From positions 20,414,824 through 20,478,823 of the forward strand of contig OX422184.1 in the NCBI GenBank assembly GCA_949130485.1: DNA of 64,000 bases, written 5' to 3'. The notes beneath the pieces were generated by a model. It did not search any database and had not been told where the DNA came from. It saw nothing but the letters and a program-made list of their open reading frames with translations. Position numbers and translations under genes: made by a program. Source of the DNA: Agelas oroides (lineage: Eukaryota; Porifera; Demospongiae; Agelasida; Agelasidae). Numbering within the stretch: position 1 is the first letter of the stretch; every line of letters begins with the position of its first letter. Below are positions 16,835-59,400 of the stretch, piece after piece.

Positions 16835-17403
16835 TCAGAGGTAACTTGTTTCACTTGTTTCACTTTCTTTGGCATCAAATTCTTCACTTTCCAAGAATGA
16901 GGTTTCTACAAAGAGCAGAAATTGTGGATAGGATAATTTATAAGGGTATAGTTTTTGTAAAACTTTGTTATGCTTCAAAAGTGTGCGGCATTAAACTGAG
17001 TGAATAAAATTGCTGCTTGGTTGAGTGAAATTTCAATGAGTCTACATCATGAAAGTGAGGCTGTGTGGCACAACCTTTTTATACTTCAAACAGTTGATCA
17101 CAAGATGTAGCACTTGCGGAAATGTACTCACACAGTACACAACTGTTTGACACTTCAGACATACATTTATAGACTCTGTAATACTTACCTGGAGAACTGG
17201 CAGATGACAATTCATCAAATACACCCTGTATGAGTTGTAAATGCTTATTAATGTACTGAAGTATTCGTCATCAATAATTATTGACACATACACACAGTTG
17301 TCAGTAACTGCAAACCTTTTCATTCTCAAGTGCAGCCTTATTTGAAAAGACATTTTCTGTTAGAGTACCTCTGAGTTCAAGAGTATTGGAGTAGTTCTCC
17401 CTT
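16835..17403 (-). CDS. Cytoplasmic tail exons (three) and stop
   Basis: The best phase-consistent reading is exon 17316-17403 (RENYSNTLELRG...NKAALENEK; acceptor TTTTATAG, weak donor GTTTGC), exon 17189-17225 (GVFDELSSASSP; acceptor ATACAG, donor GTAAGT) and exon 16835-16905 (TSFLESEEFDAKESETSETS, then YL and TGA; acceptor CTTTGTAG). The phases fit: 2 to 0, 0 to 1, 1 to stop. The tail is short and acidic/Ser-rich with Tyr residues and no kinase or phosphatase domain. The weak first donor makes the middle part uncertain. Confidence 0.55.
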
Positions 17404-20400: not shown

Positions 20401-23400
20401 ACAAGTACAATGGTGTAAGTTACGATGAATCCATTTTGTTTCCCAACAGAAGGTGGCCTCCATGACACTAAAACTGCTCTGGAACCAATGACTTGCACAG
20501 TAAAATTTTGAGGAGGACCTGTGGGAACTGTTGAACAGAAACACATCACTAGGGAAACACTACTACTTTACTATAATAAACCTGAGAATGGAGCTTTTTC
20601 AACACCCTTACCATCTTCAGGGGTCTGTATGCTGAGCACTAGTCCGTAAGGTCCTGGGCCAATGGTCACCGCAGCCACAGTCAGAGTGTATGTGTAGAAT
20701 GGGTGTAAACCTGATATGTTTCGTGCAGTGGTTTGTGATGTCAGTTGCAAAAGTGTTCCAGTCTCAACCACACTAATATCGATGAGATAACTTCGGATCA
20801 CTCCATTCTGATCAGTTAACAGAGGAGGCTGCCACTGGAGATAGATGGTTGTTGAATTAACTGCACTGCCTTGGAGGTGCATTGGTGCACTGCTTGGAAC
20901 TGTAGCGGGGAATGTTCACGGTTGGCAAAAGACAAGGTAACTATAACTCTTTTGTTAGAAATATAAAGGTATCATATGGGTATTTAATATTGCTTGTGCA
21001 TAAAGTGAAATATGAGAATTACAACTATCCATACCATCTTCAGGCATCTGTACAGTGAGCACTAGTCCGTAAGGTCCTGGGCCAATGGTTACAGCAGCCA
21101 CAGTCAGAGCGTATGTGTAGAATGGGTGCAAATTCGATATGCTCAATGCAGTGGTTTCTGACGTTTGTTGAAAACTTGATCCAGGCTCAGCCACGCTAAT
21201 GTTTATGTTGTAACTGCGGATAACTCCATTCTGATCAGCTGATGGAGGAGGTTCCCACTGGAGTTGGATGTTTGTTGAATTAACTGCACTGCCTTGGAGG
21301 TGTACTGGTGCACTGCTTGGAACTGCAGTGGGACAGTGTGAAACAAAATCACAGTCAAATTTATGCACAAAAAGGAAGCTAGTAGTTAAATTACAATCTG
21401 TACCATCTTCAGGCATCTGTACAGTGAGCACTAGTCCGTAAGGTCCTGGGCCAATGGTTACAGCAGCAACAGTCAGAGTGTATGTGTAGAATGGATGTAA
21501 ACCTGATATGTTTCGTGCATTGGTTTGTGATGTTAGTTGCAAAAGTGTTCCTGTCTCAACCACACTAATATTGATGAGATAACTCCGGATCACTCCATTC
21601 TGATCAGTTAAAAGAGGAGGCTGCCACTGGAGATAGATGGTTGTTGAATTAACTGCACTGCCTTGGAGGTGCACTGGTGCACTGCTTGGAACTGCAGGGG
21701 GGATGTTCATGGTTGGCGAAAGACAATTATAACTCTTTTGTTAGAAATATAAAGGTATCATATGGGTATGTAATAATCACTGGTGCATAAAGTAAAATGA
21801 GAGTTACTACTATCCATACCATCTTCAGGCATCTGCACAGTGAGCATTACTCCGTAAGGTCCCGGGCCAATGGTTACAGCAGCAACAGTCAGAGTGTATG
21901 TGTAGAATGGATGTAAACTTGATATGTAAAGTGCAGTGGTTTCTGATGTTAGTTGAAAAACTGATCTAGTCTCAGCCACACTAATGTTTACGATGTAACT
22001 GCGGATTACTCCATTCTGATCAGATAATGGAGGTGGTTCCCACTGCAGTTGGATGGTTGTTGAGTTAACTGCACTACCTTGGAGGCGAACGGGTGCCCTG
22101 CTTGGAACTGCAGTGGGACAGTGTGAAACGCAAAGTTGTCATTAAATAGATTTAAGTGTTCAATATACATTAGTACTCCAGTGAAGAATGGGATGTTTTT
22201 CACTGTGAATAGCTACCAAAACACAGCCTAGAATACAGTAATCCTTATCCTCAAGCTCTTTATTCTTCACACTATTAACTTCACTCATGCATGCATGCAT
22301 AGCTCATACAGTAATATGATATGTCATTCATTTGCCTTACCATCTTCAGCAGTTCTGATTATGACTAAATCAGAGGATGGACTAGCTCCAACTCGTGTTG
22401 CAGCAACAATTGAACACCTGTACTCATAATAAGGGTGTAACTCTTCAACAATTAGTTCAGTATGGTTTCCTTCCGTCTGGTAGATCAGTGTTGTGTTTGT
22501 AGGCAACTCAACAAGCACAATTGTGTAGCTTATAATGACTCCATTCCGCTCCTCAAAGGGAGGTTGTTTCCAAGACACCAGAACTGCTCTGGAACCAACA
22601 ACTTGCAAAGTAACATTTTCAGGAGGAGCCGTGGGAGCTGTTGTGAACAGTTACAAATAAAAGACATACACTTAATTGTAGGAGACACAAATATGTGCAA
22701 AGTTTGCAGCAACTAAGGGACTAACCATCCTCAGGCATCTGTATAGTGTATGCTTCACTGTAGGGACCAGGGCCAATGGTCACAGCACTGATAATGAAGC
22801 TGTACGTATAGTGTGGATGAAGGTCTTCAATTATGAGTGTAGTGTTGGTTGATCGATGCTGAAACTTGCCACCAATCTCAGCTACTGAGATATTGATGAA
22901 GTATTCTCGAATAACTCCATTCTGTTCTTCTGCTAGAGGGGATTCCCATGCAAGAAGCAGAGATCTGGAATTGATTGGCCGTGCCTCAATGCTTCCTGGA
23001 GTGCCACTAGGTACTGTAGAAAGAGAATGTAGTACAATGTAAATTGTTACGTATCTCTTCCAGAGTTATACTATGGTCTTTCCTGTAATTTTTATTCCAA
23101 ACCTAGGCAGAGGTAAACAGTATAGGTACATGTCAATGACTCTGTTGTACTTGTGATTATCACTGTTGTACATTACAGCCAGAGTAGTACTTACCATCTT
23201 CAAGTGTTTGTAAGGCATACTCATATGTAAAGGGTCCCTGGGAGATGGTTACTGCTGCTACAGCAAAATGATAGGTATAGAACGGGTGCAAGTTTCCAAT
23301 GCTAAGCTCAGTATTGGTTGAGTTCACACTGAAGCTCCACCCAGTCACTTCTTCCCTAACATTCACAATGTAAGAACGAATGACACCATTTTGTTGAGAT

Positions 23401-26400
23401 GTTTCAGGAGGGTTCCAGCTGAGAGTCACAGATGTTGATGTGACTTCAAGGTGGTTTACACCAACAGGAGGTCCACTTGGAGCTACCAAGGCAAAATCAG
23501 AAGAAAAACAGTGACACAAGGTCTACATTGCTGATTAGCTCCTAGCCAGCCATCAGTGGCTACTATTTAGCACATAGTGTGTCAACTATGGCAAGCTTTG
23601 ACACAATTCCAAATGTAACCATCATGAGAAGAATGTTCTTTTCTGAACTAAGAATATATTCATTGGCATGAAAGAGCTTGTAAAAAATATGTTTTTCTTT
23701 ATACCATTAACAAACTTGCAATACCAAATAGGTGACTATATATAGTCTTACCATCTTCCATCGTTATCTGAGATAGACCTATGCTGTATGGTCCAGCACC
23801 CACTGCTGTTTGTGCGGCTATGGTAATAGCATACACAGTAAACGGTTCCAGTGAATCCACAATCAAGCTTGTCGACGAGGTGAAGTGCTGCATTGTGATG
23901 CCATTTTCAACATTTGTCACATTCACATAATATCCTGTGATAGCTCCATTGCGATCTGCTGCCATTGGTGGCTCCCATGTAGCTATCAGTGCACTAGAAT
24001 TTAGGCTGCTAACATTGATGTTGACAGGTGGGCTTGAAGGAGCTGTGGAAATGTAATAGCAAGTACATGACTATTACATAGCAGTAATTAACAATCAGAT
24101 TATACCTGCTTCTAGTGTTGTCACAGTGAGCGGTGGGGAATAAGGACCAATATCTACAGTTGATGCAGCAACAGTACACATGTAGGTATTGAATGGTCGA
24201 AGAAACTCCACCAGAATGTGAGGAGCTGAAGTTATAAGTTGGAACTTTCTCCCAGTCTCCTCTTCTGTGATGTTAATAAAGTAGAGACGAATTATTCCAT
24301 TCTGATCTGCAAGTGGAGGATTCTGCCACACTAGAGAGAATTTTGAGCCTGTGATATTGCTGAGAGCCAACATCACTGGAGAACTGGATGGTGCTGTGAG
24401 AGAAAAAAGGAAAGAAAGAAACTTGTCTCAGATTTAAAACAATGCACTATATATTTGCTTACCATCTTCTGGCAATTTCACTTCAACAGTAGCTGAATAA
24501 GGTCCAATGCCTACTGTTACTGCTGCAACTATGCAGGTGTATGTGTAGAATGGATGTAGTGTAGGGACACTAAGAGTAGTCGTGTTCACAGCAGTGAATG
24601 ACAACAGCCTCCCAGTCTCCATTTCAGTGACGTTGACTATGTAATGTACAATTATTCCATTCTGATTCTTGGGTGCTGGTGGTTGCCAGCCCAGCACAAG
24701 TGTAGTTGATGTCTGTGATTGTACTTTCACTCCTTGCGGTGGTCCTGTTGGTGCTATAGGACAGAAATGTGAAAGCAACATACATCAGCTATCTTACTTG
24801 TATGTTGTGAAGAGCAATACAGTTAATACAGGGCTACGCACGCAACATGGTCGAGTCGCAGTTTCAACCGACTAAACCGTTTAACTTTCCAAAGTGACAG
24901 TTTGGTACAAAGGGCGAGGAGAGGAGTTCCGGGCTGAATGGTGTGACACGTTCAGCTGGCTGCACTATGATGTCAAAACAGATGCTACCTTTGTATGCGC
25001 TGTGAGGCTGAGAAAAAGTTCTTAGCAAGTACGAAGGGGGAGCCAGCGTTTATCTCCAAAGGTTTTACATACTGGAAAGAGGGCCCTAAGGCATTCAAGA
25101 AACATCATCAAGGAAGTGATTGTCGTGCACTGTGAGGCCGTAGACGCTTTGATTGGTGCACGAAGGATGTTGGTGAGCTGCAGCTGAGTCAATTCCAATT
25201 GCCATTATTACTATGGGAGTGAAGTGGAGTCACTGAATGCGCAAATGTTAAGGCTTCGAGCACATTTCTATGTTTGGCTGCAGGTTGGGCAACTCTTGCT
25301 CTTTCTCCCCAACATTGCACCAGAAGCGATCTTAGAATTTATGAAATCCAAAATTTTCCTGGGGAAGCATGCCCCCAGACCCCCCTAGAGGCAACAGTTT
25401 ATCGCCTGACCAACTAACTAATGCCTCCTACGGGCCTGTAATATAACATTCGCTATCTGCTGTCTTTCAGATCAACACTTACCATCCTGTGGTGTCACAA
25501 GTTGAACAGGTAAAGTTGAAGGACCAACTGCAATAGTTTCAGCAGCAACAGTACAGGTATACATTGTGAATGGGTTTAGTGCAGTAACATTCACACTGGT
25601 TGCAGTTGTATTAATGACTCTTGCTTCACCAGCAATGTCCAGTATTGTAACTCTGTACTGTCGGACTATTCCATTCTGTAGTGCTGAAGGTAGGGGGTCC
25701 CATGACAACTGAATTGATCTGGAGTCTAGTGCTCTTGGCTTGAAATTAGCTGGTGAGCCAGATGGTGCTGGAAAGAAAGTTGTAACCACAAACTGAAACA
25801 TGTCAGCTAACTATTACAACTCTGTGTCAACTATGCCTTAATTAACTATGTATTGGCTATGTAATTTTGCATGTGTGAAATTTTGTTTACAATAATCAAA
25901 CCTACCATCTTCTGCAGTTCTCACTGTAATTACAGTGCTGAAAGGCCCTGGGCCAATGGTCACTGCAACCACTGTGCAATTGTATGTGTAGTACGGATGG
26001 AGAGAACCAATGGTGATGCTGGTGGTGTTAGTGGTCAGTTGAAACATTCTTCCAGTTTCCTCCTCAGTGACATTCACTCTGTATTCACGGATGTCTCCAT
26101 TTGGGTCTTCTGGTGGCTCCCACATCAGGTATATGTGGGTAGAGTTCAGTGTTGTTCCTGTAGTGTTACTTGGGTGTGTACCTGGGACTGTGAAATAATA
26201 AGTGTATTAAGTGGAGATTGCATCTAGTATCAAATCATGCTCAAGCATAACAATGCGGTATCACAATGTTGTATATTTATACCTGCTTCTGGTGTTTGGA
26301 TGATAATCTGTATACTGAATGGTCCAGGTCCTATTGCAGTAGATGCAGCAACAATACAAAGGTAGGTAGTATATGGTGTCAATCCTGTCACATTTACTGA

Positions 26401-29400
26401 TTGCGACTGAGATGTAAGTTGTAGTCGCTCTCCAGTCTCTACACCAGTAATATTCACAATGTAGCTGATAATGATTCCATTTTGTTCTGCTGCTGCTGGA
26501 GGATTCCAAGTAATGTAAAGCCTTCTGGCCCTGCTTGCTTGGGCTATAATATTTTGTGGAGGACCACTTGGAGCTACACAATGAGGGGAAAATGAAAAGC
26601 AATAACTTCCTGATTTTTACAGAGTTCCATGCATTTGTGACCATTCCAGTCATTGATGACACACACAAGCTTACCATCTTGAAGAGTCATGATGGTGATG
26701 GATGTTGTGTAAGGACCATCTCCAACTATTGTTACAGCTGCTATAGTGAAATTGTATGTATAGTATGGGTGTAGTGATGTCACATTCACAGAAGTAGCAG
26801 CTGAGAATAGCGAAAATGATGTGCCTGTTTCAACTTCAGTTATACTAATCATGTATCGTGTTATGATGCCATTTTGTGTATCAGCAGGTGGTGGATCCCA
26901 AAACAGCGAAATCCCAGTTGAGCCCATAGCATTTCCATGTAGGGACTGGGGAGGGGTTGATGGTGCTGGATAAAAAAGAAGAATATTGCAGTATAAGAAA
27001 TACTCTAATAAATGAGGGGGTAGGTATGACTTCTTACCATCCTGAGGGGTTAGCAGTGTAATAACAGCACTAAATGGGCCAGTGCCAACACTTGTTTGTG
27101 CAGCAACAATGCAGTAGTAGGTTGTGTAGGGGAACAATGTGGATAGTGTTAAAGCAGTTGTATTGGATGTGTACTGCAAGGTCTCACTCCTTCGAGTGTT
27201 TGTTACATTGATTATATAACCAATGATAACTCCATTTCTATCCTCATAGTTGGGTGGATCCCATGACAGAGTAGACATCCTTGAAGACACTGCTCTAGCT
27301 TCAATGTTTCGAGGGTTTCCACTTGGCACTGTGTAACAAAACAATAATAAGGGTGTAACTGCCCAAAATAAACACACTTGCAAATAACCTTTCTTGATTA
27401 CACAACAGTGTTGTAGGTGATAATCAGTAGAACTGGCAAGGAATTGTGTAAGTTAAATTGTGAATTAGTAGATTCGACAATGCATTGGCAAACAATACAT
27501 ACGCAACTTTATAGTCCAGACAGTACAGTTCACAAGCATCTAGAAAGCTACATTTCGTCAAAGTACTTGCATTTAGTAAGCCGACACAGATGAGTGAGAA
27601 ACAAAAGAAGGTGTAACATACCATCCTCTGAAGTTGTTATAGTGAACACCTCACTGTATGGTCCACTTCCAACAGTATATGCACTGACTACACACTTGTA
27701 AGTGTAGTATGGGTGCAGGGAAAGCACTGATACAGATGTGCTGGTTGAATTGAGTATGATAGTGGTGCCTGTTTGGAGTTCCGTTATATTGACAGTATAT
27801 TCCCTGATAATACCGTTCTGCTGGCTGGTGGGAGGTGGCATCCAAGAAAGGACAAAGGAAGTTGAACTTACACTTGGAGCAACAAGCTCTTCAGGTGGAG
27901 CACTTGGAGCTGAAAAGAAGATAATAATAGACCTGATGTTATCACAATCCCACAGTATGCATCTTGTTTGTATATCAGTCAAACGTAATGAAAGCTACTA
28001 AAATGTACTTGTTTAGAACATCTTGCCTCACGCCGAAAATAAAGTGATTTAGATGTTCCAAGGTGAAAATAGAGAAAAGGCGGCAGCTATTGGGAATTGA
28101 ACCTAGAACACCGGGCTCGAGCCACAAGTGCTCTGTAACTGACCTACAACAACTGGACAACCACCAGCCATCACTGTCCTCTATGATTATGTAGTATATA
28201 TACTACTTTTTATTGCTACTAAAATCACTCAGAACAGGCATTACAATAGCCTGGATGTTTTGGTCAATTGTCGCAGGCAATGTAATGTACCTGATTCATT
28301 TGTTTGCACAATGAGAGAGATGCTAAACGGTCCAGTTCCAGCAGTGGTCTCTGCTGCTATCACACAAATGTACATAGTGAATGGTCTCAGTGACTGTATG
28401 ACAAGGTTGGTAGTGACTGAAGACAGTTGGAAAGTCTCTCCAGTTCTAATTGCAGTCACATTTATGAGGTAACCGGTTATGATGCCATTATGTGATTGCA
28501 TGTCTGGGGGACTCCAGCTGAGGGTAATGGACTCTGATGTTGTTGCTTCCACATTTAAATTCTCTGGTGGCATGCTGGGAGCTGCAGTCAGAAATTGCAA
28601 AAGGAGAATACTTTATGATCTAATATAAGCAGGAAACACGTGAAGTGTAAATGACAATGCTTGACTGCAATTCGAACACTAAAAACACAACATTTCCGAT
28701 AATCACAATAGTAAATTATGAGCTCAATACTTCCTATCTTCCCATGCAAATAAGATTGATCTTAATCTTATCCACACCAGTTCCAGTGTGTACTACAATT
28801 GCTAAAACTTTCCCAACTAAAAAATAACACCATGCACACTACTTTGAAATGAGGAAAAAAAGTATTAACATGGTCCAAGTTGAACAAAAACCCACCATCC
28901 TCTCTTGTCTGAACTGTGAATACAATTGTGGCAGGACCTGGTCCTACAGTTACAGCAGTAACAGTGACTGAGTATCTGTAGAAAGGATGCAGATTGTGCA
29001 AAGAGATAGAAGTTGTGAGTGACACACGGCTGAAAGTAATCCCTGTTTCCAATTCTGTGATGTTGATGACATAATGCCTGAGGATGCCATTCTGGTCTTC
29101 AAATGGTGGAGGGCTCCAAGAAATTGAAATACTGGTGGAATCAACTGCATATCCAGAAATATTGGCTGGAGCAGAAGTTGGTGCTATGGAATCAAAATGA
29201 GAACAAAAAAATTGTGGAACACATCTAAAGTCAGCTTCTTTAGTCATTATAACTAAGTCATCTTACCTTGTTCACCAAGCCTTACAGATATTGCACTACT
29301 GTATGGTCCAAGTGCAACAGTTTGTGCTGCTACAGCACTTATGTACATATAGAAAGGGTGAAGTGCATTTAGTTCCAAGAGAGTGGCATTTGTGGTAACG

Positions 29401-32400
29401 TAGAATGTTCTGCCAGTCTCAACTTCAGTCACTCTTATCACGTAATTTCTGATGACGCCATTAATGTCTTCAACTGGGGGTGGGTCCCATGACAGGTGAA
29501 ACAAGTCAGAGCTTGCATTGGTTACTGCAGCATTAGTGGGAGGACTGCTTGGAGCTGCAAGAAATATTACATAGGTAAGTTTCATGCTACAGATAGCTGT
29601 GCAATGTTTTAGTTACCTGCTTCCATGGTTTGTACACTGACAGGATCTGTGTATGGACCAGTAGCAATTGTGTGAGCAGCAACTTCACATTCATAGTTGT
29701 AATAAGGGTGCAGTGATGTGATGTTAATGTGATAATTTGTTGCTTGAAAGATCCACACCCGACTGGTTTCCCTTTCCCTAATTCTGATCACATAGTTACG
29801 AATGATCCCATTGATCTCAATCAAGGGAGGTGAAGACCAAGTCAACGTAACCACTGTTGAGCTTACTGCTATGCCTGACAGAGACCGAGGAGGTGCAGAG
29901 GGAGCTACAGAATGAGATGTATGTGTGTGTACGGGAGAATTAAGACAGTGTTATTATTGTACACAAACATTACAAGCAATAGTATGAAACAATCACAGCA
30001 CAGCGCACATCACTGTAGTAACAAGCCTTAATACGATAGTTGTAGACCAAAAAGATAGTACATAATGCACTATTGCAATACGATAGCATTAAGGGGAAAT
30101 GTTCATGATTAGCAAAAAAAACAAGGTAACTGTAACTCTTTTGTTAGAATATACAAATATCATATGGGTATGTGATGTAAAAAGTGAAATGAGAGTTACT
30201 ACTATCCATACCATCTTCAGTCATCTGCACAGTGAGCGCTAGTCCATAAGGTCCCGGGCCAATGGTTACAGCAGCAACTGTCAGAGTGTATGTGTAGAAT
30301 GGATGTAAATTTGATATGTAAAGTGCCGTGGTTTCTGATGTTTGTTGAAAACTTGATCCAGTCTCAGCCACACTGATGTTTATGATGTAGCTGTGAATCA
30401 CTCCATTCTGATCAGCTAATGTAGGTGGTTCCCACTGGAGTCGGATGGTTGTTGAATTAACTACATTGCCTTGGAGGTGTACTGGTGCACTGCTTGGAAC
30501 TGCAGTTGGACAGTGTGAAACACAAAGCAGTCATCAAATAGATGTAAGTGTTCAATATACATTAGCACTCCAGTGAAGAATGGGATGTTTTCGAATAACT
30601 ACCAAAACACAACCTAGAACACAATATTTTGTTATGTTCACAAGTTTTTCATACTATTCATTTCACTACCTTATACAGTAAAACCATATAATGTCAGTTC
30701 ATTTGCCTTACCGTCTTCAGCAGTTCTGATTGTGACTAAATCAGAGGATGGACTAGCTCCAACTTGTGTTGCTGCGACAATTGAACACCTGTACTCATAA
30801 TAAGGGTGTAACTCTTCAACAATTAGTTCAGTATGGTTTCCTTCCCTCTGGTAGATCAGTGTTCTGTTTGTAGGCAACTCATCAAGCACAATTGTGTAGC
30901 TTATAATGACTCCATTCCGCTCCTCAAAGGGAGGTAGTCTCCAAGACACTAGAACTGCTCTGGAACTAACAACTTGCAAATTAACATTTTCAGGAGGAGC
31001 CGTGGGAGCTGTTGTGAACAGTTACAAATAAAAGACACACACTTAATTGTAGGAGACACAAAACAAAGTAACTATGTGCAAAGTTTGCAGCAACTAAGGG
31101 ACTAACCGTCCTCAGGCATCTGTATTGTGTACGCTTCACTGTAGGGACCAGGGCCAATGGTCACAGCACTGATAACCAAACTGTAGGTGTAGTGTGGATG
31201 AAGATCTTCAATTATGAGTGTAGTGTTGGTTGATTGATGCTGAAACTTGCCACCAGTCTCAGCTACTGAGATATTGATGAGGTATTCTTGAATGATTCCA
31301 TTCTGTTCTTCTTCTGCAGGGGGTTCCCATGCAAGAAGCAGAGATCTGGCGTCAATTGGTCGTGCCTCAATGCTTCCTGGGGCGCCACTAGGTACTGTAG
31401 AAAGAGAATATGGCCAATGTATCCAATTTGAAGTTATGCCAAATAAGTTATCTCTTCCAGAGTTATAATATGGTTCTTCCTCTATTCGTTATTCCATTGT
31501 GTGGGGATCACTATAAATAGAACCCAGGCAGAGGTACACAGAAGTAGCAAAGCTGCATGTCAATGACATAAAAATACTTGTGATTATAACTGCTATACAT
31601 TATGGCCAGAGTACTTACCATCTTCAAGTGTTTGTAAGGCATACTCATATGTAAAGGGTCCCTGGGAGATGGTTACTGCTGCTACAGCAAAATGATAGGT
31701 ATAAAACGGGTGCAAGTTTCCAATACTTAGCTCAGTATTGGTTGAGTTCACACTGAAGCTCCTCCCAGTCTCTTCTTCCTGAACATTCACAATGTAAGAA
31801 CGAATGACACCATTTCGTTGAGATGTTTCAGGAGGGTTCCAGCTGAGAGTCACAGATGTTGATGTGACTTCAAGGTGGCTTACACCAACAGGAGGTCCAC
31901 TTGGAGCTACCAAGGCAAAATCAGATGAAAAACAGTAACACAAGATCTACAGTGCTGATTAGCTAATAGCCAGCCATCAGTGGCTATAATTTAGCACACA
32001 GTGTCTCAACTGTGACAAGCTTTGACACTAGTCCATACGTAACCATACTGAGAAGGATGTTGTTTATGCTAAGACATTCAATGGACTGAAAGAGCTTGGA
32101 AGCATCAATCAAATATATCAGTAACAAAACTTGCAATGCTAAAGCAGAATATTATAGTCTTACCATCTTCCATCGTAATCTGTGATAGACCTATGCTGTA
32201 AGGCCCAGCACCTACTGCTGTTTGTGCGGCTATGGTAACATAATACACAGTGAATGGTTCCAGTGAATCTACAATCAAGCTCGTAGATGAAGTGAAGAGC
32301 TGCACTGTGATGCCATTTTCAACATTTTTCACATTCACAAAATATCCTGTGATAGCTCCGTTGCGATCTGCTGCCATTGGGGGGTCCCATGTAGCTATGA

Positions 32401-35400
32401 GTGCACTAGAGTTTAGGCTGCTAACACTGATGTTGACAGGTGGGCTTGTAGGAGCTGTGAAAATGTTGTAGCAAGTACATTAAAATAATAATACATGGCA
32501 GTAATTAACAATCAGATCATACCTGCTTCCAGTGTTGTCACAGTGAGAGGTGGAGAATAAGGACCAATATCTACAGTTGATGCAGCAACAGTACACACAT
32601 AAGTGTAGAATGGATGAAGAGACCCCACAAGAATATGAGGAGTTGAAGATGTAAGTTGGAACTGTCTCCCACTCTCCTCCTCTGAGATGTTGATAAAGTA
32701 GAGACGAATTATTCCATTCTGATCCTCAGGTGGAGGATTCTGCCACACCAGAGAGAAGCTCGAGTGTGTAATATTGCTGAAAGTCAGCATTACTGGAGAA
32801 CTGGATGGTGCTGTGAGAAAAGAAAAACTTCAGTACTCCCAACTAACATGGTATATTTGGAATAAAAAACAATGCACTACGGTAAAAACCTCTCTTATCT
32901 GGGCAGCATGGGACCAGGGGGTGCCCATAACTTAGAAAATGCCTGTAACTTAGAAATATGTATGTTGTGTACAGTATAGTGTCCCAAACCCAGTTGTATG
33001 CATCCTTAGAGAAGCCAGAAGGGGGTGAAACTACTGAGTGCAGACTGTGTAAACACTGTGGTTGTATGCTGAATACTGAGTTTACACAAGTCACTCGCCC
33101 AACCAGCACGCGCGGCTGACTAAGGACAGGAAACTTGTTTAATTTTGTGTGGCTAAAGATAGTGCCCGGTAGAAGGAGGTGCCCGTAAGTTTGAAGTCCG
33201 GATAAGGGAGGTTCTACTGTATATACTTGCTTACCATCTTCTGGCAATTCGACTTCAACAGTTGCTGAATAAGGTCCTATGCCTACTGTTACTGCTGCAA
33301 CTATGCAGGTGTATGTGTAGAATGGATGTAGCATGGGGACGCTAAGAGTAGTCATGTTCACAGCAGTGAATGACAACAGCCTCCCAGTCTCCATTTCAGT
33401 GATGTTGACTATGTAATGTACAATTATTCCATTCTGATTCTCGGGTGCTGGTGGTTGCCAGCTCAGCACAAGTGTAGTTGATGTCTCTGATTGTACTTCC
33501 ACTCCTTGTGGTGGCCCTGTTGGTAGTATAGGACAGAAATGTGATAGTAACATGTATCAGCTATCTTACGTGCATGTTGTGAAGAGCAATACAGTTAATA
33601 TAACATTCGCTACCGGCTGTCCTTCAGATCAATACTTACCATCCTGTGGTGTCACAATTTGAACCGCTAAGGATGAAGGACCAACAGCAATAGTTTCAGC
33701 AGCAACAGTACAGGTATACATTGTGAATGGGTTTAGTGCAGCAACATTCACAATGGTTGCAGTCGTAGTAATGACTCTTGCTTCACCAGCAATGTCCAGT
33801 ATTGTAACTCTGTACTGTCGGACTATTCCATTCTGTAGTGCTGAAGGTAGGGGGTCCCATGACAACTGAATTGTTCTGGAGTGTAGTGCTCTTGCTTGGA
33901 AATTAGCTGGTGAGCCAGATGGTGCTGGAAAGTAAATTGTAACCACAAACAAACATGTCAGATAATTATTACAACTCAGTGTCAACTATGCCTAAACTAT
34001 GTCCTGGCTACGTAATTTTGGATGTGTGAAGAAATGTGTTATTTACATTAATCAAACCTACCATCCTCTGCAGTTCTCACGGCAATTAAAGTGCTGAAAG
34101 GCCCTGGGCCAATGGTCACTGCAACGACCGTGCAATTGTATGTGTAGTATGGATGGAGGGAACCAATGATAATGCTGGTGGTGTTAGTGCTCAGTTGAAA
34201 TGTTCTTCCAGTTTCCTCCTCAGTGACATTCACTCTGTATTCACGGATGTTTCCATTTGGGTCCTCTGGTGGCTCCCACATCAGGTATATGTGGGTAGAG
34301 TTCAGTGTTGTTCCTGTAGTGTTACTTGGGTGGGAGCCTGGGACTGTGAAAATTATAAGTGCATTAAATGCCGATTGCATCCAGTATCAAAATCATGCTC
34401 AAGCATAACAATGCTGTATCACATCAATTTATACCTGCTTCTGGTGTTTGGATGACAATCTGTATACTGAATGGGCCAGGTCCTATTGCAGTAGATGCAG
34501 CAACAATACAAAGGTAGGTAGTATATGGTGTCAATCCTGTCACATTTACTGATTGTGACTGAGATGTAAGTTGTAGTCGCTCTCCAGTCTCTACACCAGT
34601 AATATTCACAATGTAGCTGATAATGAGTCCATTTTGTTCTGCTGCTACTGGAGGATTCCAAGTAATGTAAAGGCTTCTGGTACTGCTGGTTTGGGCCATA
34701 ATGGCTTGTGGAGGACCACTCGGAGCTACACAATGAGGAAAAATAAAAAGCAAACACTTTCTGATTTTCACAGACAGGGTTCTATTTGTGACCATTCCAG
34801 TCAAGGTATACAACATTAATGTAACACACACAAGCTTACCATCTTGAAGAGTCACGATGGTGATGGATGTTGTGTAAGGACTGTCTCCAACAATTGTTAC
34901 AGCTGCTATAGTGAAATTGTATGCATAGTATGGGTGTAGTGATGTCACATTCAAAGAAGTAGTAGCTGAGAATAGCGAAAATGATGTGCCTGTTTCAACT
35001 TCAGTTATACTGATCATGTATTGTGTTATGATGCCATTTTGTGCATCAGCAGGTGGTGGTTCCCAAAACAGTGAAATCCCAGTTGAGTCCATTGCATTTC
35101 CATGAAAGGACTGGGGAGGACTTGATGGTACTGAATAAAATAGAAGATTATTGCAGTATAAGGAACACTCTAATAACAGAGGGGGTAGGCATGACTTCTT
35201 ACCATCCTGAGGGGTTAGCAGTGTAATGACAACACTAAATGGGCCAGTGCCAACACTTGTTTGTGCAGCAACAGTGCAGTAGTAGGTTGTGAAGGGGGAC
35301 AGTGTGGATAGTGTTATAGTTGTTGTATTGGATGCGTACTGCAAGGTCTCACTCCTTCGAGTGTTTGTTACATTGATTACATAACCAATGATAATTCCAT

Positions 35401-47400: not shown

Positions 47401-50400
47401 TACAGTTACAGCAGTGACAGTGACTGAGTATCTGTAGAAAGGATGCAGATTGTACAAAGAGATAGAAGTTGTGAGTGACACACGGCTGAAAGTAATCCCT
47501 GTTTCCAGTTCTGTGATGTTAATGACATAATGCCTGATGATGCCATTCTGGTCTTCAAATGGTGGAGAGCTCCAAGAAATTGAAATAATGTTGGAATCAA
47601 CTGCATATCCAGAAATATTGGCTGGAGCAGAAGTTGGTGCTATGGAATCAAAATGAGAATGAAAAATCAGTGTGGAACATATTGCTAAGTCAGCTTCTTT
47701 ATCATCTTACCTTGTTCACCAAGCCTCACAGATATTGCACTACTGTGTGGTCCAAGTGCAACAGTTTGTGCTGCTACAGCACTTGTGTACATGTAGAAAG
47801 GGTGAAGTCCATTTAGCTCCAGGAGAGTGATGTTTGTGGTAACGTAGAATGTTCTGCCAGTCTCAACTTCAGTTACTCTTATCATGTAATATCTGATGAC
47901 ACCATTAATGTCTTCAACTGGAGGTGGGTCCCATGACAGGAGAAACGAGTCAGAGCTTGCATTGGTTACTGCAATATTTGTGGGAGGACTGCTTGGAGCT
48001 GCAAGAAATATTACGTAGGTAAGTTTCATGTTATAGATAGCTGTGCAATGTTTTAGTTACCTGCTTCCATGGTTTGTACACTGACAGGATTTGTGTATGG
48101 ACCAGTAGCAATTGTGTGAGCAGCAACTTCACATTCATAGTTGTAGTAAGGGTGCAGTGATGTGATGTTAATGTGAGAATTTGTTGTTTGAAAGATCCAC
48201 ACGCGACTGGTTTCCCTTTCCCTAATTCTGATCACATAGTTACGAATGATCCCATTGATGTCAATCAAGGGAGGTGAAGACCAAGTCAAGGTGACCACTG
48301 TTGAGCTTACTGCTATACCTGACAGAGACCGGGGAGGTGCAGAGGGAGCTTCAGAATGTGTGTATGTGTGTGTATGGGAGAATTAAGGCAGTGTTATTAA
48401 ACGTAATGAGCAATAGTAGGAAACAATCACAGCCTGCGTTAGTGTAGAAACAAGCCTTAATATGAAAGACAGAAAAATCATTGAAAATGAAAAAAAATGT
48501 AGGAATTCCGTGCCAAAAAGTACACAAACAAGGAAGGATATAAAAGTGAAGGTAAATACACAAAGCCTCATCCATCCCTACATCTTTTCACAATAGAGTG
48601 AAGATGTAGGGACGGGGCTTTGTATATTTACCTTAACTTTTATATCCTTCCTTGTTTGTGTACTTTATGGCACGCCATTCCTACATCTCTTTTCTGTACT
48701 TTTTTGGTAATGTTCTCAGTTATGTTGTGAAGTAAACACTATAGTGCAACCAATTGAACTCTACACCTTGAAACAATACTGACAGTTTAGAAATTGTTCA
48801 GGTAAGCGCAAGCATGCAAGCACATACAGGTAGTCTGGACCCCAGGTCTCTTGTAGCTTACAACGCAGGTTTTAGTCTATCTTGCTTTTATGCCCCAGAC
48901 TTTCATTCTAGCTTTTCAGAGCTTGGAGTACATTATTCATGTAAGCTGTCAAGGCCGGCATGGACTAGTCTGTGGACCATGACATCATTGAGGGCCTGTA
49001 AGCTGTCAAGGCCTGTATATGACGCTTTATAGTGAAACAAAAACAGCTAAGTGGGACCGTGCATGTTAACAGCGTCTTACCTATGTGTTGTCAATAGCGT
49101 TGCTTAGCATCCTGTGGCCTGGGACAGGCAGAGACTGTGACTCGTACTCGTGCTCGCAGAGATTGCGTGTGTTAGTCTTGTTCCCAGACCAACTGCAGTA
49201 AATTGTGGTCTCGGAATGAGAGTACTTGTACGCATGCGCACATAATGAAAACGGTGTCCTACGCAACGGGCAACAGCGGTGTGCTGGAAGAGCTCACCGT
49301 GGGTTCAGATTAACTTACGAAGACGCTAAGTGTCCGTGGACCTGCGCTCCGAAATAAACAGCATTTTGGTGCTAAAAACATGGTGAGTACTCTCGAGTTA
49401 TTGTTGTTAAACTAAGAAGAAAGAATAACAAAAATGGCATTTTTGCTATCGCACACTTTTGCGTTGAGCTGTTTTCCGTGAGGCTTTTTGGCAACTCGAA
49501 GAGTCTTGCTGGTCATAAAAGCCCTGAAAGAGGAAGGCTGGGCGCTTAAATAAGCTTTTAGCGTATTTGTGGTGAAGTTATACGGCTTTTGCTTAAGTAT
49601 TGCATATATTGCGCGTCCGCGCCAATCCTACATAGAGAGTCTACCGACTCTCTGATACTTGCATACTAAAATGATAGTACATAATGCACCACTGCAATAT
49701 GATAGCATTAAGGGGGAATGTTCATGGTTAGTAAAAGGCAAGGTAATTATAACACTTTTGTTAGAAGTATAAAAGTATCATAGGGGTATGTAATAATTGC
49801 TGATGCAAAAAGTGAAATGAGAGTTACTACTATCCATACCATCTTCAGGCATCTGCACAGTCAGCATTAGTCCATAAGGTCCTGGGCCAATGGTTACAGC
49901 AGCAACAGTCAGAGTGTATGTGTAGAATGGATGTAAATTTGATATGTAAAGTGCAGTGGTTTCTGATGTTCGTTGAAAACATGATCCAGTCTCAGCCACA
50001 CTAATGTTTATGATGTAACTGCGGATCACTCCATTCTGATCGGCTGATGGAGGTGGTTCCCACTGCAGTTGGATGGTTGTTGAGTTAACTGCACTGCCTT
50101 GGAAGCGTACTGGTGCACTGCTTGGAACTGCAGTGGACAGTGTGAAACACAAAGTAGTCATCAAATAGATGTAAGTGTTCAATATACATTAGTACTCCAG
50201 TGAAGAATGGGATGTTTTCGACAAAACACAACCTAGAACACAATATTTTGTTATGTTCACAAGTTTTTCATACTATTCATTTCACTACCTTATACAGTAA
50301 AACCATATAATGTCAGTTCATGTGCCTTACCGTCTTCAGCAGTTCTGATTGTGACTAAATCAGAGGATGGACCAGCTCCAACTTGTGTTGCTGCAACAAT

Positions 50401-53400
50401 TGAACATCTGTACTCATAATAAGGGTGTAAGTCTTCAACAATTAGTTCAGTATGGTTTCCTTCCCTCTGGTAAACCAGTGTTGTGTTTGTAGGCAACTCG
50501 AAAAGCACAATTGTGTAGCTTATAATGACTCCATTCCGCTCCTCAAAGGGAGGTAGTCTCCAAGACACTAGAACTGCTCTGGAACTAACAACTTCCAAAT
50601 TAACACTTTCCGGAGGAGCCGTGGGAGCTGTTGTGAAAAGTTACAAGTAAAAGACACACACTTAATTGTAGGAGACACAAAACAAAGTAACTATGTGCAA
50701 AGTTTTCAGCAACTAAGGGACTTACCATCCTCAGGCATCTGTATTGTGTATGCTTCACTGTAGGGACCAGGGCCAATGGTCACAGCACTGATAATGAAGC
50801 TGTATGTGTAGTGGGGATGAAGGTCTTCAATTATGAGTGTAGTGTTGGTTGATTGATGCTGAAACCTGCCACCAGTCTCAGCTACTGAGATATTGATGAA
50901 GTATTCTCGAATGATTCCATTCTGTTCTTCTTCTGCAGGGGGTTCCCATGCAAGAAGCAGAGATCTGGAGTCAATTGGTCGTGTCTCAATGCTTCCTGGG
51001 GCGCCACTAGGTACTGTAGAAAGAGAATTTGGTCAATGTATCCAATTTGAAGTTATGACAAATAAGTTATCCCTATGGTTCTTCCTCTAATTGTTATTCC
51101 ATTGTGTGGGGATCACTATAAATAGAAACCCAGGCAGAGGTACCCAGATGTAGCAAAGCTGCATGTCAATGACATAAAAATACTTGTGAATATCACTGTT
51201 ATACATTATGGCCAGAGTACTTACCATCTTCAAGTGTTTGTAAGGCGTACTCATATGTAAACGGTCCTTGGGAGATGGTTACTGCTGCTACAGCAAAATG
51301 ATAGGTATAGAACGGGTGCAAGTTTCCAATGCTTAGCTCAGTATTGGTTGAGTTCACACTGAAGCTCCTCCCAGTCTCTTCTTCCCGAACATTCACAATA
51401 TAAGAGCGAATGACACCATTTTGTTGAGATGTTTCAGGAGGGTTCCAGCTGAGAGTCACAGATGTTGATGTGACTTCAAGGTGGCTTACACCAACAGGAG
51501 GTCCAGTTGGAGCTACCAAGGCAAAATCATAAGAAAAAGAGTAACACAAAATCTACATTGCTGATTAGCTAATAGCCAGCCATCAGTGGCTATTATTTAG
51601 CACACAGTGTCTCAACTGTGACAAGCTTTGACACTAATCCATATGTAACCATACTGAGAAGGATGTTCTTTTCCTTGTTTATGCTAAGACATTCAATGGA
51701 CTGAAAGAGCTTGGAAGCATCAATCAAATATACCAGTAACAAAACTTGCAGTGCTAAAGCAGAATATTATAGTCTTACCATCTTCCATCGTAATCTGTGA
51801 TAGACCTATGCTGTAAGGCCCAGCACCTACTGTTGTTTGTGCGGCTATGGTAACATAATACACAGTGAATGGTTCCAGTGAATCCACAATCAAGCTTGTA
51901 GATGAAGTGAAGAGCTGCACTGTGATGCCATTTTCAACATTTTTCACATTCACAAAATATCCTGAGATAGCTCCATTGCGATCTGCTGCCATTGGGGGCT
52001 CCCATGTAGCTATGAGTGCACTAGAATTTAGGCTGCTAACACTGATGTTGACAGGTGGGCTTGAAGGAGCTGTGAAAATGTTGTAGCAAGTACATTAAAA
52101 TAATATGTGACTATAATAGTACATGGCAGTGATTAACAATCTGATTATACCTGCTTCCAGTGTTGTCACAGTGAGAGGTGGGGAATAAGGACCAATATCT
52201 ACAGTTGATGCAGCAACAGTACAGACATAAGTGTAGAATGGATGAAGGAACTCCACAAGAATGTGGGGAGTTGAAGATGTAAGTTGGAACTGTCTCCCAC
52301 TCTCCTCCGAGATGTTAATAAAGTAGAGACGAATTATTCCATTCTGATCCTCAGGTGGAGGATTCTGCCACATCAGAGAGAAGCTCGAGTGTGTAATATT
52401 GCTGAAAGTCAGCATTACTGGAGAACTGGATGGTGCTGTGAGAAAAGAAAACTTCAAATATGCAATACTCCCAACTAACATGGTATACTTGTATATTTGA
52501 AATACAAACAATGCACTACAGTAAAACCTCTCTTATCTGGGCAGCATGGGACCAGGGGGTGCCCATAACTTAGAAAATGCCCGTAACTTAGAAATATGTA
52601 TGTTGTGTACAGTATAGCGTCCCAAACCCAGTTGTACGCATCCTTAGAGAAGCCAGAAGGGGGTGAAACCACTGAGTGCAGACTGTGTGGTTGTATGCTG
52701 AATACTGAGTTTACACAAGTCACTCGCCCGACCAGCACGCGCAGCTGACTAAGGACAGGAAACTTGTTTAATTTTGTGTGGCTAAAGATAGTGCCCGGTA
52801 GAAGGAGGTGCCCGTAAGTTTGAAGGCCGGATAAGGGAGGTTCTACTGTATATACTTGCTTACCATCTTCTGGCAATTCCACTTCAACAGTAGCTGAGTA
52901 AGGTCCTATGCCTACTGTTACTGCTGCAACTATGCAGGTGTATGTGTAGAATGGATGCAGTGTGGGGATGCTAAGAGTAGTCATGTTCACAGCAGTGAAT
53001 GACAACAGCCTCCCAGTCTCCATTTCAGTAATGTTGATTATGTAATGTACAATTATTCCATTCTGATTCTCGGGTGCTGGTGGTTGCCAGCTCAGCACAA
53101 GTGTAGTTGATGTCTCTGATTGTACTTCCACTCCTTGTGGTGGTCCTGTTGGTACTACAGGACAGAAATGTAATAGTAACATGCATCAACTATTTTACTT
53201 GTATGCTGTGAAGAGCAATAGAGTTAATATGACATTCACTATCTGCTGTCTTTCAGATCAGTGCTTACCATCCTGTGGTGTCACAAGTTGAACTGCTAAG
53301 GATGAAGGACCAACAGCAATAGTTTCAGCAGCAGCAGTACAGGTGTACATAGTGAATGGGTTTAGTGCAGCTACATTCACACTGGTTGCAGTCGTAGTAA

Positions 53401-56400
53401 TGACTTTTGCTTCACCAGCAATGTCCAGTATTGTAACTATGTACTGTCGGACTATTCCATTCTGTAGTGCTGAAGGTAGGGGGTCCCATGACAACTGAAT
53501 TGATCTGGAGTCTAGTGCTCTTGCTTGGAAATTAGCTGGTGAGCCAGATGGTGCTGGAAAGGAAATTGTAACCACAAACTGAAACATGTCAGCTAATTAT
53601 TGCAACTCAGTGTCAACTATGTCCTGGCTATGTAATTTTGGATGTGTGAAGAAATGTGTTATTTACATTAATCAAACCTACCATCCTCTGCAGTTCTCAC
53701 TGCAATTAAAGTGCTGAAAGGCCCTGGGCCAATGGTCACTGCAACGACCGTGCAATTGTATGTGTAGTATGGATGGAGGGAACCAATGATAATGCTGGTG
53801 GTGTTAGTGCTCAGTTGAAACATTCTTCTAGTTTCTTCCTCAGTGACATTCACTCTGTATTCACGGATGTTTCCATTTGGGTCCTCTGGTGGCTCCCACA
53901 TCAGGTATATGTGGGTAGAGTTCAGTGTTGTTCCTGTAGTGTTACTTGGGTGGGAGCCTGGGACTGTGAAAATTATAAGTGCATTAAATGCCGATTGCAT
54001 CCAGTATCAAATCATGCTCAAGCATAACAATGCTGTATCACATGCTGCTTATTTATACCTGCTTCTGGTGTTCGGATGATAATCTGTATACCAAATGGGC
54101 CAGGTCCTATTGCAGTAGATGCAGCAACAATACAAAGGTAGGTAGTATATGGTGTCAATCCTGTCACATTTACTGATTGTGACTGAGATGTAAGTTGTAG
54201 TCGCTCTCCAGTCTCTACACCAGTAATATTCACAATGTAGCTGATAATGATTCCATTTTGTTCTGCTGCTACTGGAGGATTCCAAGTAATGTAAAGCCTT
54301 CTTGCACTGCTGGTTTGGGCCATAATGGTTTGTGGAGGACCACTCGGAGCTACACAATGAGGAAAAATAAAAAGCAAACACTTTCTGATTTTCACAGACA
54401 GGGTTCTATTTGTGACCATTCCAGTCAAGGTATACAACATTAATGTAACACACACAAGCTTACCATCTTGAAGAGTCACGATGGTGATGGATGTTGTGTA
54501 AGGACTGTCTCCAACAATTGTTACAGCTGCTATAGTGAAATTGTATGCATAGTATGGGTGTAGTGATGTCACATTCAAAGAAGTAGTAGCTGAGAATAGT
54601 GAAAACGATCTGCCTGTTTCAACTTCAGTTATACTGATCATGTATCGTGTTATGATGCCATTTTGTGCATCAGCAGGTGGTGGATCCCAAAACAGTGAAA
54701 TCCCAGTTGAGTCCATTGCATTTCCATGAAAGGACTGGGGAGGACTTGATGGTACTGAATAAAATAGAAGATTATTGCAGTATAAGAAATGCTCTAATAA
54801 CGGACTAAGCATGACGTCTTACCATCCTGAGGGGTTAGCAGTGTAATGACAGCACTAAATGGGCCAGTGCCAACACTTGTTTGTGCAGCAACAATGCAGT
54901 AGTAGGTTGTGTATGGGGACAATGTAGATAGTGTTAAAGCAGTTGTATTGGATGTGTACTGCAAGGTCTCACTCCTTCGAGTGTTTGTTACATTGATTAC
55001 ATAACCAATGATAATTCCATTTCTATCCTCATAGTTGGGTAGATCCCATGACAGAGTAGACATCCTTGAAGACACAGCTCTAGCTTCAATGTTTTGGGGG
55101 TATCCACTTGGCACTGTGTAACAAAACAATAATGAGGTTGTAACTGCAAAAAATGAACACACTCGCATATAACCTTTCTTGATTACACAACATTGTTGCA
55201 GATGATAATCAGTAGAACTGGCAAGGAATTGTGTAAGTTAAAATTGTGAATTGGTGGATGTGACAATGAACTGACAAAACGTTTATAGTCCAGTCAGTTG
55301 TACAGTTCACAAAGTAAATAGAAAGCTACATTTCGTCACAGTACTTGCATTTAGTAAGAAGACACAGATGAGTGAGAAACAAAAGAAAGTGTAACATACC
55401 ATCCTCTGAAGTTGTTATGGTGAACACCTCACTGTATGGCCCACTTCCAACAGTATATGCACTGACTACACACTCGTAAGTGTAGTATGGGTGCAGGGAA
55501 AGCACTGATACAGATGTGATGGTTGAATTCAGTACGACAGAGATGCCTGTTTGGAGTTCACTTATATTGACAGTATACTTCCTGATGATACCATTCTGCT
55601 GGCTGGTAGGAGGTGGAGACCAAGAAAGGACAAATGAAGTTGAACTTACAGTTGCAGCAACAAGCTCTTCAGGAGGGGCACTTGGAGCTGAAAAGGTGAT
55701 GAAATTTCTTGATGTGATTTTTATCACAAATCCATACTCCCACAGTATGCAGCTTGTTTGTATCAATCACACCTACTGAAAGCTACAAAATTAGATAGTC
55801 ATGCCTCACACTGGAAATAAAGATTCCAGACGTTATGAGTGAAAAGATAAAAGGGAAAAGCCGGCAGCTGCTGGGAATTAAACTTAGAACACCTGGCTTG
55901 AGCAGTGCTCTGCCACTGAGCTACAACAACTGGACAACCATCAGCCCTCACTGTCCTCTATTATTATGTACTACATGTACATATATTCTAGTTTTGCCTC
56001 AAAACATTTAAATCTCTTTATTGCTACTAAAACCACTTGGAACAGGCATTACAATAGCCTCCATTTTTTGTAGGTAGTTTTTGTCACAGGCAATGTAATG
56101 TACCTGATTCACTTGTTTTCACAGTGATAGAGATGCTAAATGGTCCAGTTCCAGCACTGGTCTCTGCTGCTATCACACACATGTACATAGTGAAGGGTCT
56201 CAGTGACGGTATCACAAGGTTGGTAGTGGCTGAAGACACCTGGAAAGTCTCCCCAGTTCCAATTGCCGTCACATTTATGAGGTAACCAGTTATCATCCCA
56301 TTGTGTGATTGCATGTCTGGGGGACTCCAGCTCACGGCAATGGATTCTGATGTTGTTGCTTCCACTATTAAATTCTCCGGTGGCATGCTGGGAGCTGCAG

Positions 56401-59400
56401 TCAGAAATTGCAGTCAGAAATTTCAAAAGGAGAGTATTTTGTGATCTAGTATAAGCAGGAAACACGTAAGTGTATGTATCTGATAATGACATTTCTAAGT
56501 TATGACTTGTTATCTTCCCATGGAAATAACACTCTTATCCACACCAGTTGCAGTGTGTACTACAATTGATAAAATCTGAACTTAAAAACAGTACCATACA
56601 CACTACTTTGAAATGTTAATATGAGGGGAAAAATTGTTAACAGGGTCCAAGTCAAACAAAAACCTACCATCCTCTCTTGTCTGAACTGTGAATACAATTG
56701 TGGCAGGACCTGGTTCTACAGTCACTGCAGTAACAGTGACAGAGTATCTGTAGAAAGGATGCAGATTGTACAAAGAGATAGAAGTTGTGAGTGACACTCG
56801 GCTGAAAGTAATCCCTGTTTCCAGTTCTGTGATGTTGATGACATAATTCCTGAGGATGCCATTCTGGTCTTCAAACGGTGGAGGGGTCCAAGAAATTGAA
56901 ATACTGGTGGAGTCAACTGCATATCCAGAAATATTGACTGGAGCAGAAGTTGGTGCTAATGAATCAAAATGAGAACCAAAAAATTGTGGAACAGTTGCTA
57001 AAGTCAGTTTCTTCAGTCATAATGGTTGAGTCGCCTTACCTTCTTCACCAAGCCTCACAGATATTGCACTACTGTATGGTCCAAGTGCAACAGTTTGTGC
57101 CGCTACAGCACTAGTGTACATGTAGAAAGGGTGAAGTCCATTTAGCTCCAGGAGAGTGATGTTTGAGGTAACAATGAATGTTCTGCCAGTCTCAACTTCA
57201 GTCACTCTTGTCATGTAATATCTGATGACGCCATTAATGTCTTCAACTGGAGGTGGGTCCCATGACAGGAGAAACGAGTCAGAGCTTGCATTAGCCACTG
57301 CAATATTTGTGGGAGGACTGCTTGGAGCTGTAAGAAATATTACGTAGGTAAGTTTCATGTTATAGATAGCTGTGCAATGTTTTAGTTACCTGCTTCCATT
57401 GTTTGTACACTGACAGGATCTGTGTATGGACCAGTAGCAATTGTGTGAGCAGCAACTTCACATTCATAGTTGTGATAGGGTTGCAGTGATGTGATGTTAA
57501 TGTGAGAATTTGTTGCTTGAAAGATCCACACGCGACTGGTTTCCCTTTCCCTAATTCTGATCACATAGTTACGAATGATCCCATTGATGTCAATCAAGGG
57601 AGGTGAAGACCAAGTCAAGGTGACCACTGTTGAGCTTACTGCTATGCCTGACAGAGACCGGGGGGGTGCAGAAGGAGCTTCAGAGATGTGTGTGTGTGTG
57701 GGAGAATTAAGGCAGTGTATTATTGTACACAAACGTTACAAGCAATAGTATGAAACAACCACAGCACAGCCTACATTACTGTAGTAATGTGATGTACATA
57801 TATGTATACTAAAAACATAGCACATAATGGTTACAGACTAGACTTTCATTATGCAATGGTGTCACTACAATACAGATAGTTACTTTACCATCTTGGAGTG
57901 TAGTGAACATGATAGGCAGACTGTATGGGCCAAGACCAACTGTGGTTGCAGCAGCCACTATGCAGCTATAATTATTAAACTCCTGCAAATTGGTTGCGAT
58001 AGCATTCATCCCAGTTGAGTTCAAAATGACATCATTGGTACCAAATCCAAGATCAGTGATGATCAGAATGTAATACACAATTCGTCCATTTTGATGTTCA
58101 TCTGGCGGAGGGAGCCAGCTTATTGTAGCCCTTGTGCTGCTTGTTGCAAGAGTTTGCACATTCTGAGGTGGTGCATGAGGATCTGAAGCAAAAATAGTGT
58201 CCAGTTAACCTATCTACCGTAATTTACATACATGCATGGATGTCGATTAATCTTACATGATGGGTTGGTTGTAACTGTCAATGATGCAGAAGGTCCAGAA
58301 CCTACTCTGGTTGAGGCACGAATAAATACATTATACATAGTAAATTCATCAAGTCCGGATATCAAGAAACTGTTTGTATCTCTGGCATTCACTGTGACTG
58401 AAATCTGTCCTCCAGTAGAGTTGTATGTAATCTTGTATGATATGATTATGCCATGTGGAAGTAGCGGCTCAGACCACGTCAGGGAGACAGCAGTAGAGTT
58501 AACAACTGCTCCTCTGAAATCACTTGGTGGGTCACCTGGCACTAAAGATCAAAGAAAAATATCAAGTTGTTTCAAGATTATTAAATGAATAAATTAAAGT
58601 TATTCACCAGACTCATCAGTTGTTGCTGAACGTGCAAAGCTAGGATTGCCAGCACCAGCAGATGTATTCGCTACAACATAGCAGTTGTAGGTTGTGTAGG
58701 ACTGTAAGCCAGTTACAGCTGCTTGTGTTTCATTTCCAGGTACAATGGTATGTGGATGCATACTCTCATCACCAACATCTGGTTGCTGCATCCCACTACC
58801 ATCTCCAGAATATTGCTGTGTTCCATTACCAGAGTCAGGTGTTGGTTTGTAACAGTAAACAGTGTAGGACTCAATGATACCATTTGGTTCAGAAGGAGAG
58901 GTCCATGTGACAAAGAGATCAAGAGGTGAACCGACGACACGAGATACCACAGGCTGTTCTGGTGCAGATGGAACTATAATATATAAACAAACAAACAAAC
59001 ACAATAAAACAAAAGTTGTCTCATCAGTTGTACTCCTGAGTTTATTCTTCCTGTGCACAGCTTTCGAGTTATTTACACATTATGTCAAGTCAAGAGCGCA
59101 TAAGAACGGGCGGCTTGAGTAAGGGCGTGTAACTCACATAGTGTGATCAAAATTATTGAACCGTACTAAAAATAGAACACCCGGTCACATGCTTAGCAAC
59201 AGTGGCATATATCTACGCATGTACGGGCAGCTGCACAGTATAGGTTAGTATTTTTAGTACTGGTGGTAAATTCCGACCGGTTTCAAATTTTATGGAATTA
59301 CACACTTTTACTCAAGCCCCTCCGTTCTTTGTCTACTTTAAGTCAAGTTAATCAAGGTAAGCGTGTTTCTTACCATCTGTAGCTGTCATCACTGTATAGG

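Follow-up and report, generated by a model that had tools for sequence, protein, structure and literature searches.

A recombinant unit within a 68-exon FN3 array suggests block growth of a probable giant membrane-protein gene in the sponge Agelas oroides

We analysed a 64,000-nucleotide stretch of the Agelas oroides genome (the window; contig OX422184.1, positions 20,414,824 to 20,478,823), the minus strand of which carries 68 FN3 exons running from 57677 to 21820 in four units of 17, named A to D in protein order. The second unit, B, is a recombinant of its two neighbours, A and C. The array probably lies within one very large gene encoding a predicted type I membrane protein, and our favoured account is that it grew in blocks inside this gene, with unit B originating by unequal crossing over.

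For every array exon, the best match in each of the other units is the exon at the same position (204 of 204 comparisons; positions p1 to p17). The units are 1,631–1,637 residues long and position 17 recurs at intervals of 8,392, 10,243 and 9,385 bp. A self-comparison of the DNA, proposed as a check in the initial annotation, showed that the blocks repeat at the DNA level with their introns included. The 68 exons and period of 17 described in that annotation are thus borne out, coordinates included, as are its spacings of 8.4, 10.2 and 9.4 kb and its figure of about 1,600 residues per step. Exons differ between units by 2.3–6.6%; for unit D against the others the values are 5.8–6.6% in exons and 12.9–14.7% in introns and spacers. 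A shorter sub-period within the 17-domain unit was considered and rejected, since the positions of unit B are only 28–52% alike, which argues against a recent sub-block.

To locate the domains, eight Pfam hits from the window served as seeds for an FN3 profile; after four rounds of rebuilding it gave 82 matches in the window (partial ones included), all on the minus strand. All 17 exons of unit B scored above the Pfam fn3 cut-off, as did three flanking exons scored alongside; the 51 exons of units A, C and D were scored by the window-derived profile and not by Pfam individually. The array exons measure 282–297 nt, all multiples of three, and have open frames after start corrections, in which seven exon starts were shifted upstream by hand to an acceptor that retains the full domain (five from the sequence, two by analogy). 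At p11 of unit C the acceptor AG of the other units has been lost (33516-33525) and the next in-frame AG lies 9 nt downstream, which takes 9 nt off this exon in the model.

Comparison of unit B with its neighbours, introns included, revealed a change of affinity along its length. Over p1–p6 it differs from C at 7 of 2952 sites (0.24%) and from A at 212 of 2866 (7.4%), while over p10–p14 it differs from A at 12 of 2457 (0.49%) and from C at 95 of 2419 (3.9%); p15–p17 lie 2.8% from A and 4.2% from C. Among 467 three-unit sites, 256 join B with C, 176 join A with B and 35 join A with C. The best single break gave a maximum chi-square of 283.7, with 2 AB and 214 BC sites to its left and 174 AB and 42 BC sites to its right; none of 2000 permutations reached this value (largest 18.7), in a permutation that disregards the linkage of neighbouring sites. 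Site labels are still mixed beyond the best break, down to about 44200. Trees with a related locus as outgroup grouped B with C over p4–p6 and A with B over p9–p12, each with a support of 100. We judge the hybrid to be young: the synonymous divergence of unit B is 0.007 from C (p1–p6) and 0.010 from A (p9–p14). A crossover of C with A predicts that the hybrid should be placed between A and C and should carry the spacer of A, and both are observed, the spacer including the insertion found in that of A.

We propose that an FN3 stalk was extended in blocks, beginning with the duplication of a 17-exon block. Pairing of unit C on one chromatid with unit A on its partner, followed by an exchange near p7, would later have yielded the order A, hybrid (C on the left, A on the right), C, D. 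Single-domain duplication of p17 would have proceeded in parallel, with additional exchanges between units before or after. Each array exon encodes a whole FN3 domain and has a length divisible by three, so the frame survives the gain or loss of blocks, however large or small. The insertions shared between units (Table 1) are consistent with growth in which D-like and ABC-like units came first, A and C next and B last: one resembling a miniature inverted-repeat transposable element (MITE) is present in A, B and C, another of 1,185 bp in A and B, one of 875 bp in B only, and one in intron 10 of D only. The initial annotation had proposed that a block of 17 exons was amplified, introns and transposons included, inside one gene, and the present data support this for the predicted gene, with the hybrid unit as a trace of the mechanism. 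It had set this mode against growth by single domains. Here the block amplification stands, and single-domain duplication has occurred too, in three extra p17-like domains after unit D (76–89% identical to p17, and followed by one p16-like domain) and five in succession at a related locus.

The array was then placed in a joined splice model of 92 exons on the minus strand, encoding 8,596 residues without internal stops. The model overruns the array at both ends, from 65899, outside the window, to a stop codon at 16835, and 87 of its 91 introns are in phase 1. The domain order is IgGFc_binding, two Ig, 81 FN3, a transmembrane segment and a short tail, the FN3 domains comprising seven N-terminal ones, the 68-domain array, four further exons and two split domains. 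The transmembrane exon (136 nt) contains a long hydrophobic run, judged by eye, and occurs once in the 184 kb examined. The tail of about 75 residues is spread over three exons and ends in ETSYL, which we take to resemble a PDZ-binding end. There are 180 N-glycosylation sequons. In the correct frames, none of the IgGFc, Ig, transmembrane and tail exons is repeated from unit to unit, and the 184 kb hold a single copy of each head, transmembrane and tail exon; the exceptions are the two Ig exons, which match one another, and the IgGFc exon, which has relatives upstream. This non-recurrence and the continuous open splice model argue for one gene, as the initial annotation had held, and we infer that it would be transcribed as a single mRNA.

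Several observations weigh against this account of the gene and its hybrid unit. To the right of the break A and B diverge unevenly, by 0.49% over p10–p14 (0 of 1211 sites in p12–p14), 39 of 1381 (2.82%) onward to the end of p17 and 23 of 1408 (1.63%) in the spacer, and p7–p9 of unit B are equidistant from C (25 of 1140) and A (25 of 1141; 2.19% each). A single recent crossover predicts even divergence, so further exchanges, or a donor allele unlike the assembled A, are needed. The 35 of 467 sites that join A with C also count here. Unit D is not simply outermost: the p4–p6 tree groups it with B and C, not with A (support 63), and the synonymous divergences over p1–p6 are 0.145 for A–D, 0.100 for C–D, 0.100 for A–C and 0.095 for B–D. 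As to the gene model, its end exons were connected by eye, and an exon for a signal peptide was not found upstream, where the scan gave one weak candidate (77111-77030, about 11 kb upstream). The exon finder imposed AG/GT borders and phase 1; since it admitted nothing else, the informative point is that 68 of 68 domains offered such a border with the frame open.

The patchy divergence between A and B would also suit gene conversion acting on an array that already had four units, with B replaced by C sequence on the left and by A sequence on the right and the copy number unchanged; p7–p9 and p15–p17 require extra exchange in any case. We consider conversion unlikely, as a tract of about 3 kb and another of about 2.5 kb, both long, would have to meet at one point and the spacer of B would need an A-type insertion, whereas one crossover accounts for both halves, for the placement between the parents and for the spacer. 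Crossing over rather than conversion would have produced unit B. That B is all but identical to C for about 3 kb and to A for about 2.5 kb might instead suggest a false extra unit, created by misjoined haplotypes or repeat copies in the assembly. Such an artefact appears quite improbable, because unit B has a private insertion of about 875 bp, its p15–p17 differ from both neighbours by the percentages given above, and every frame is open in the 92-exon model. Moreover, array exons match elsewhere in the assembly at <=88% among the matches listed, for which 37 of 3584 candidates were scored and which do not include the window's own place, and the closer matches are to the transposon-like insertion. 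That each unit or pair of units forms a separate gene with its own ends is barely credible, given that the head, transmembrane and tail exons are not repeated between units and that the splice model continues through the unit borders, across introns of 1,491, 2,362 and 307 nt.

Turning to selection, the average ratio of nonsynonymous to synonymous divergence (dN/dS) between units is 0.33–0.39 over the six pairs, a value averaged rather than resolved site by site, and in comparisons with D the exons differ about half as much as the introns (6.3% against 12.9% for C–D). Both indicate that the units are conserved as protein. The domain architecture makes an adhesion or receptor role plausible, and the long stalk may serve to keep the head, with its Ig and IgGFc_binding domains, at some distance from the cell, where it would suit adhesion or the capture of ligands. 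Variation of copy number between individuals is also plausible. It seems improbable that continuing unequal exchange maintains a live length-variable array whose stalk length matters in cell–cell or self/non-self recognition. The further suggestion in the initial annotation, of a length-polymorphic allorecognition molecule, could be added to any of the readings above. It would draw on the predicted surface location, the exon structure that allows units to be gained or lost and the youth of the hybrid; we regard it as very improbable, as nothing specific to allorecognition was found beyond the predicted surface location, and the average dN/dS also speaks against it. Sponge aggregation factors contain Calx-beta and Wreath domains. 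No Calx-beta domain occurred among the Pfam matches of 30 stretches, a set selected for frames of FN3, Ig, head or neighbour type, and no search was aimed at Wreath. The available portion of an Amphimedon graft paper yielded neither fibronectin nor immunoglobulin in a word search and states that aggregation-factor-mediated adhesion was not significantly enriched (PMC5450542), and in the available excerpts of a Botryllus review neither fibronectin nor copy number nor length polymorphism is treated.

Table 1 Features of the predicted gene and its FN3 array, in the order of the minus strand. Coordinates are relative to the window.
Feature	Coordinates	Strand	Basis
IgGFc_binding (PF17517) exon, past the window edge	64559-65899 (L014:559-1899)	-	Pfam 9.9e-58
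Intron in the model, leading out of the window to the IgGFc_binding exon	62244..64000	-	splice model
Ig domain 1 exon	61905..62243	-	model, Pfam
Ig domain 2 exon	61239..61571	-	model, Pfam
Seven FN3 domains N-terminal of the array, 8 exons; one domain split (58958-58830 + 58778-58608)	57889..61003	-	
Unit A, p1–p17, first in protein order	49840..57677	-	FN3 profile, exon prediction
Intron after A p11, MITE-like insertion (inverted ends, TA on both sides, by eye)	52436..52863	-	
Spacer A–B, containing a transposon-like insertion (about 1,185 bp) that spacer B also has and C and D lack; many genomic relatives	48349..49839	-	
Unit B, p1–p17; recombinant (C-type p1–p6, mixed p7–p9, A-type from p10 onward with spacer of A)	40455..48348	-	Pfam fn3 17/17
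Best single break in unit B, end of p6–p7 intron into p7	45316..45419	-	maximum chi-square
Intron after B p11, MITE-like insertion	43068-43495	-	length, alignment
Spacer B–C, insertion of about 1,185 bp in the same place and insertion of about 875 bp exclusive to B	38093..40454	-	
Unit C, p1–p17	30212..38092	-	FN3 profile, exon prediction
Intron after C p11, MITE-like insertion	32811-33234	-	
Unit D, p1–p17, overall the most diverged unit	21820..29904	-	FN3 profile, exon prediction
Intron after D p10, 729 nt (114–123 nt in A–C); insertion of about 600 bp, D only	24754..25482	-	
Intron after D p11, without MITE-like insertion (69 nt)	24394-24462	-	
Four FN3 exons past unit D: three p17-like (single-domain duplicates), one p16-like	20231..21691	-	
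Last two FN3 domains, over 5 exons; first part of each above the Pfam cut-off	17810..19972	-	
Transmembrane exon	17476..17611	-	hydrophobic run by eye
Cytoplasmic tail exons, ending in ETSYL and stop	16835..17403	-	

We compared the array with known cases of repeat growth. Intragenic block amplification is found in titin, nebulin and CR1, so the mode of growth is already known, and the present gene and its unit of 17 domains add a new example of it; to call such amplification unusual, as had been done initially, overstates the case. The repeats of CR1 consist of complement-control domains, not FN3. In the excerpts available of the papers cited in this paragraph, CR1 has alleles of 3–6 long homologous repeats that arose by unequal crossing over (PMC4842007), and it resembles the present case as a membrane protein with repeat blocks multiplied in this way; its length alleles are documented, whereas here there is one assembly. 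The A-band region of titin evolved by recursive duplication of super-repeats of Ig and FN3 domains, and its central repeats are more similar than its end repeats (PMC10665226). There too, an ordered multi-domain block containing FN3 is repeated within one gene, but titin is a filament protein of muscle whose blocks mix Ig with FN3 (C4 block A76-A86), in contrast to 17 FN3 domains in a predicted membrane protein. Segmental duplications inside the titin and nebulin genes likewise show variable copy number (PMC9142044; PMC9109913), the latter paper describing eight exons repeated three times. These share with the array the repetition of an exon block inside one gene; the genes and proteins are others, copy-number variation is documented for them, and the units here differ by 2.3–6.6% in exons.

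A protein search with p1–p9 of unit B gave distant matches, the first ten being 29–35% identical over 71–100% of the query; the highest identity among the best 120 of 205 matches (7990 candidates scored) was 37%, over 45% of the query. FN3 arrays are shared with multi-FN3 receptors such as PTPRQ and LAR and with Geodia barretti FN3 proteins. Unlike in the receptor tyrosine phosphatases PTPRQ and LAR, a cytoplasmic phosphatase domain was not found, the predicted tail giving no Pfam match at E 0.1. In a literature search that covered few subscription journals, none of the titles and abstract openings listed described this gene, and no paper came up that joined sponge, FN3 and IgGFc-binding or that dealt with aggregation factors. 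In this array, the growth of a giant extracellular protein by blocks can still be read in some of its steps: insertions mark the shared history of units and one young hybrid is present. The array would extend a mechanism described for human muscle and complement genes to a predicted surface protein of a sponge. The unit-specific insertions provide markers for copy number in individuals, and if the number of units does vary, the gene would offer a clear-cut example, from an early-branching animal, of a surface molecule with length polymorphism.

Related FN3 loci occur elsewhere in the genome. The locus at 18.46 Mb of contig C2 has p4–p12 once, followed by the five p17-like domains and one domain resembling the p16-like one, while loci at 20.02 and 20.14 Mb carry p4, p5, p9–p12 and two p17-like domains. 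Within the three related stretches (20, 20 and 10 kb), p1–p3 and p13–p16 are nowhere the best match, and the head, transmembrane and tail exons gave no match at E 0.01; the 18.46-Mb stretch stops before any tail could appear. Two mutually similar related loci (L030 and L031) lack p6–p8 and have p5 split, and are possibly a recent duplicate pair in decay. Since SRCR-coding frames lie about 9–11 kb upstream of the 18.46-Mb array (L035:108-2266), a common FN3 core may stand behind different heads, through exchange of head domains. Combinations of SRCR and FN3 have been reported in sponges, according to the available part of one study (PMC4772301).

Three more IgGFc_binding loci lie upstream of the gene on the same strand (L018:3375-4886, L019:3091-5301 and window-relative 123900-125219). 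They are 72–76% identical to the head exon over long stretches, and one has two domains; genome-wide, there are 26 IgGFc_binding matches on 7 contigs. Just downstream of the gene, on the opposite strand (12751-16194, +), a single open frame of 1,148 residues contains a Chlam_PMP repeat above the Pfam cut-off (5e-11) and a hydrophobic stretch near its start.

Finally, mitochondrial cox1 was found on a 22-kb contig (C141; L032 and L033), where TGA is read as tryptophan and the gene is interrupted by an insert that carries an open frame, presumably of the LAGLIDADG type. Among the best 120 of 7999 matches to this cox1, the closest with a name is a Demospongiae cluster at 89%, entries without a name reach 98% and the closest named cnidarian stands at 85%, in keeping with a demosponge. 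A further COX1 match without TGA codons lies on a 16.8-kb contig (C107; L034), and possibly derives from a symbiont or contaminant.

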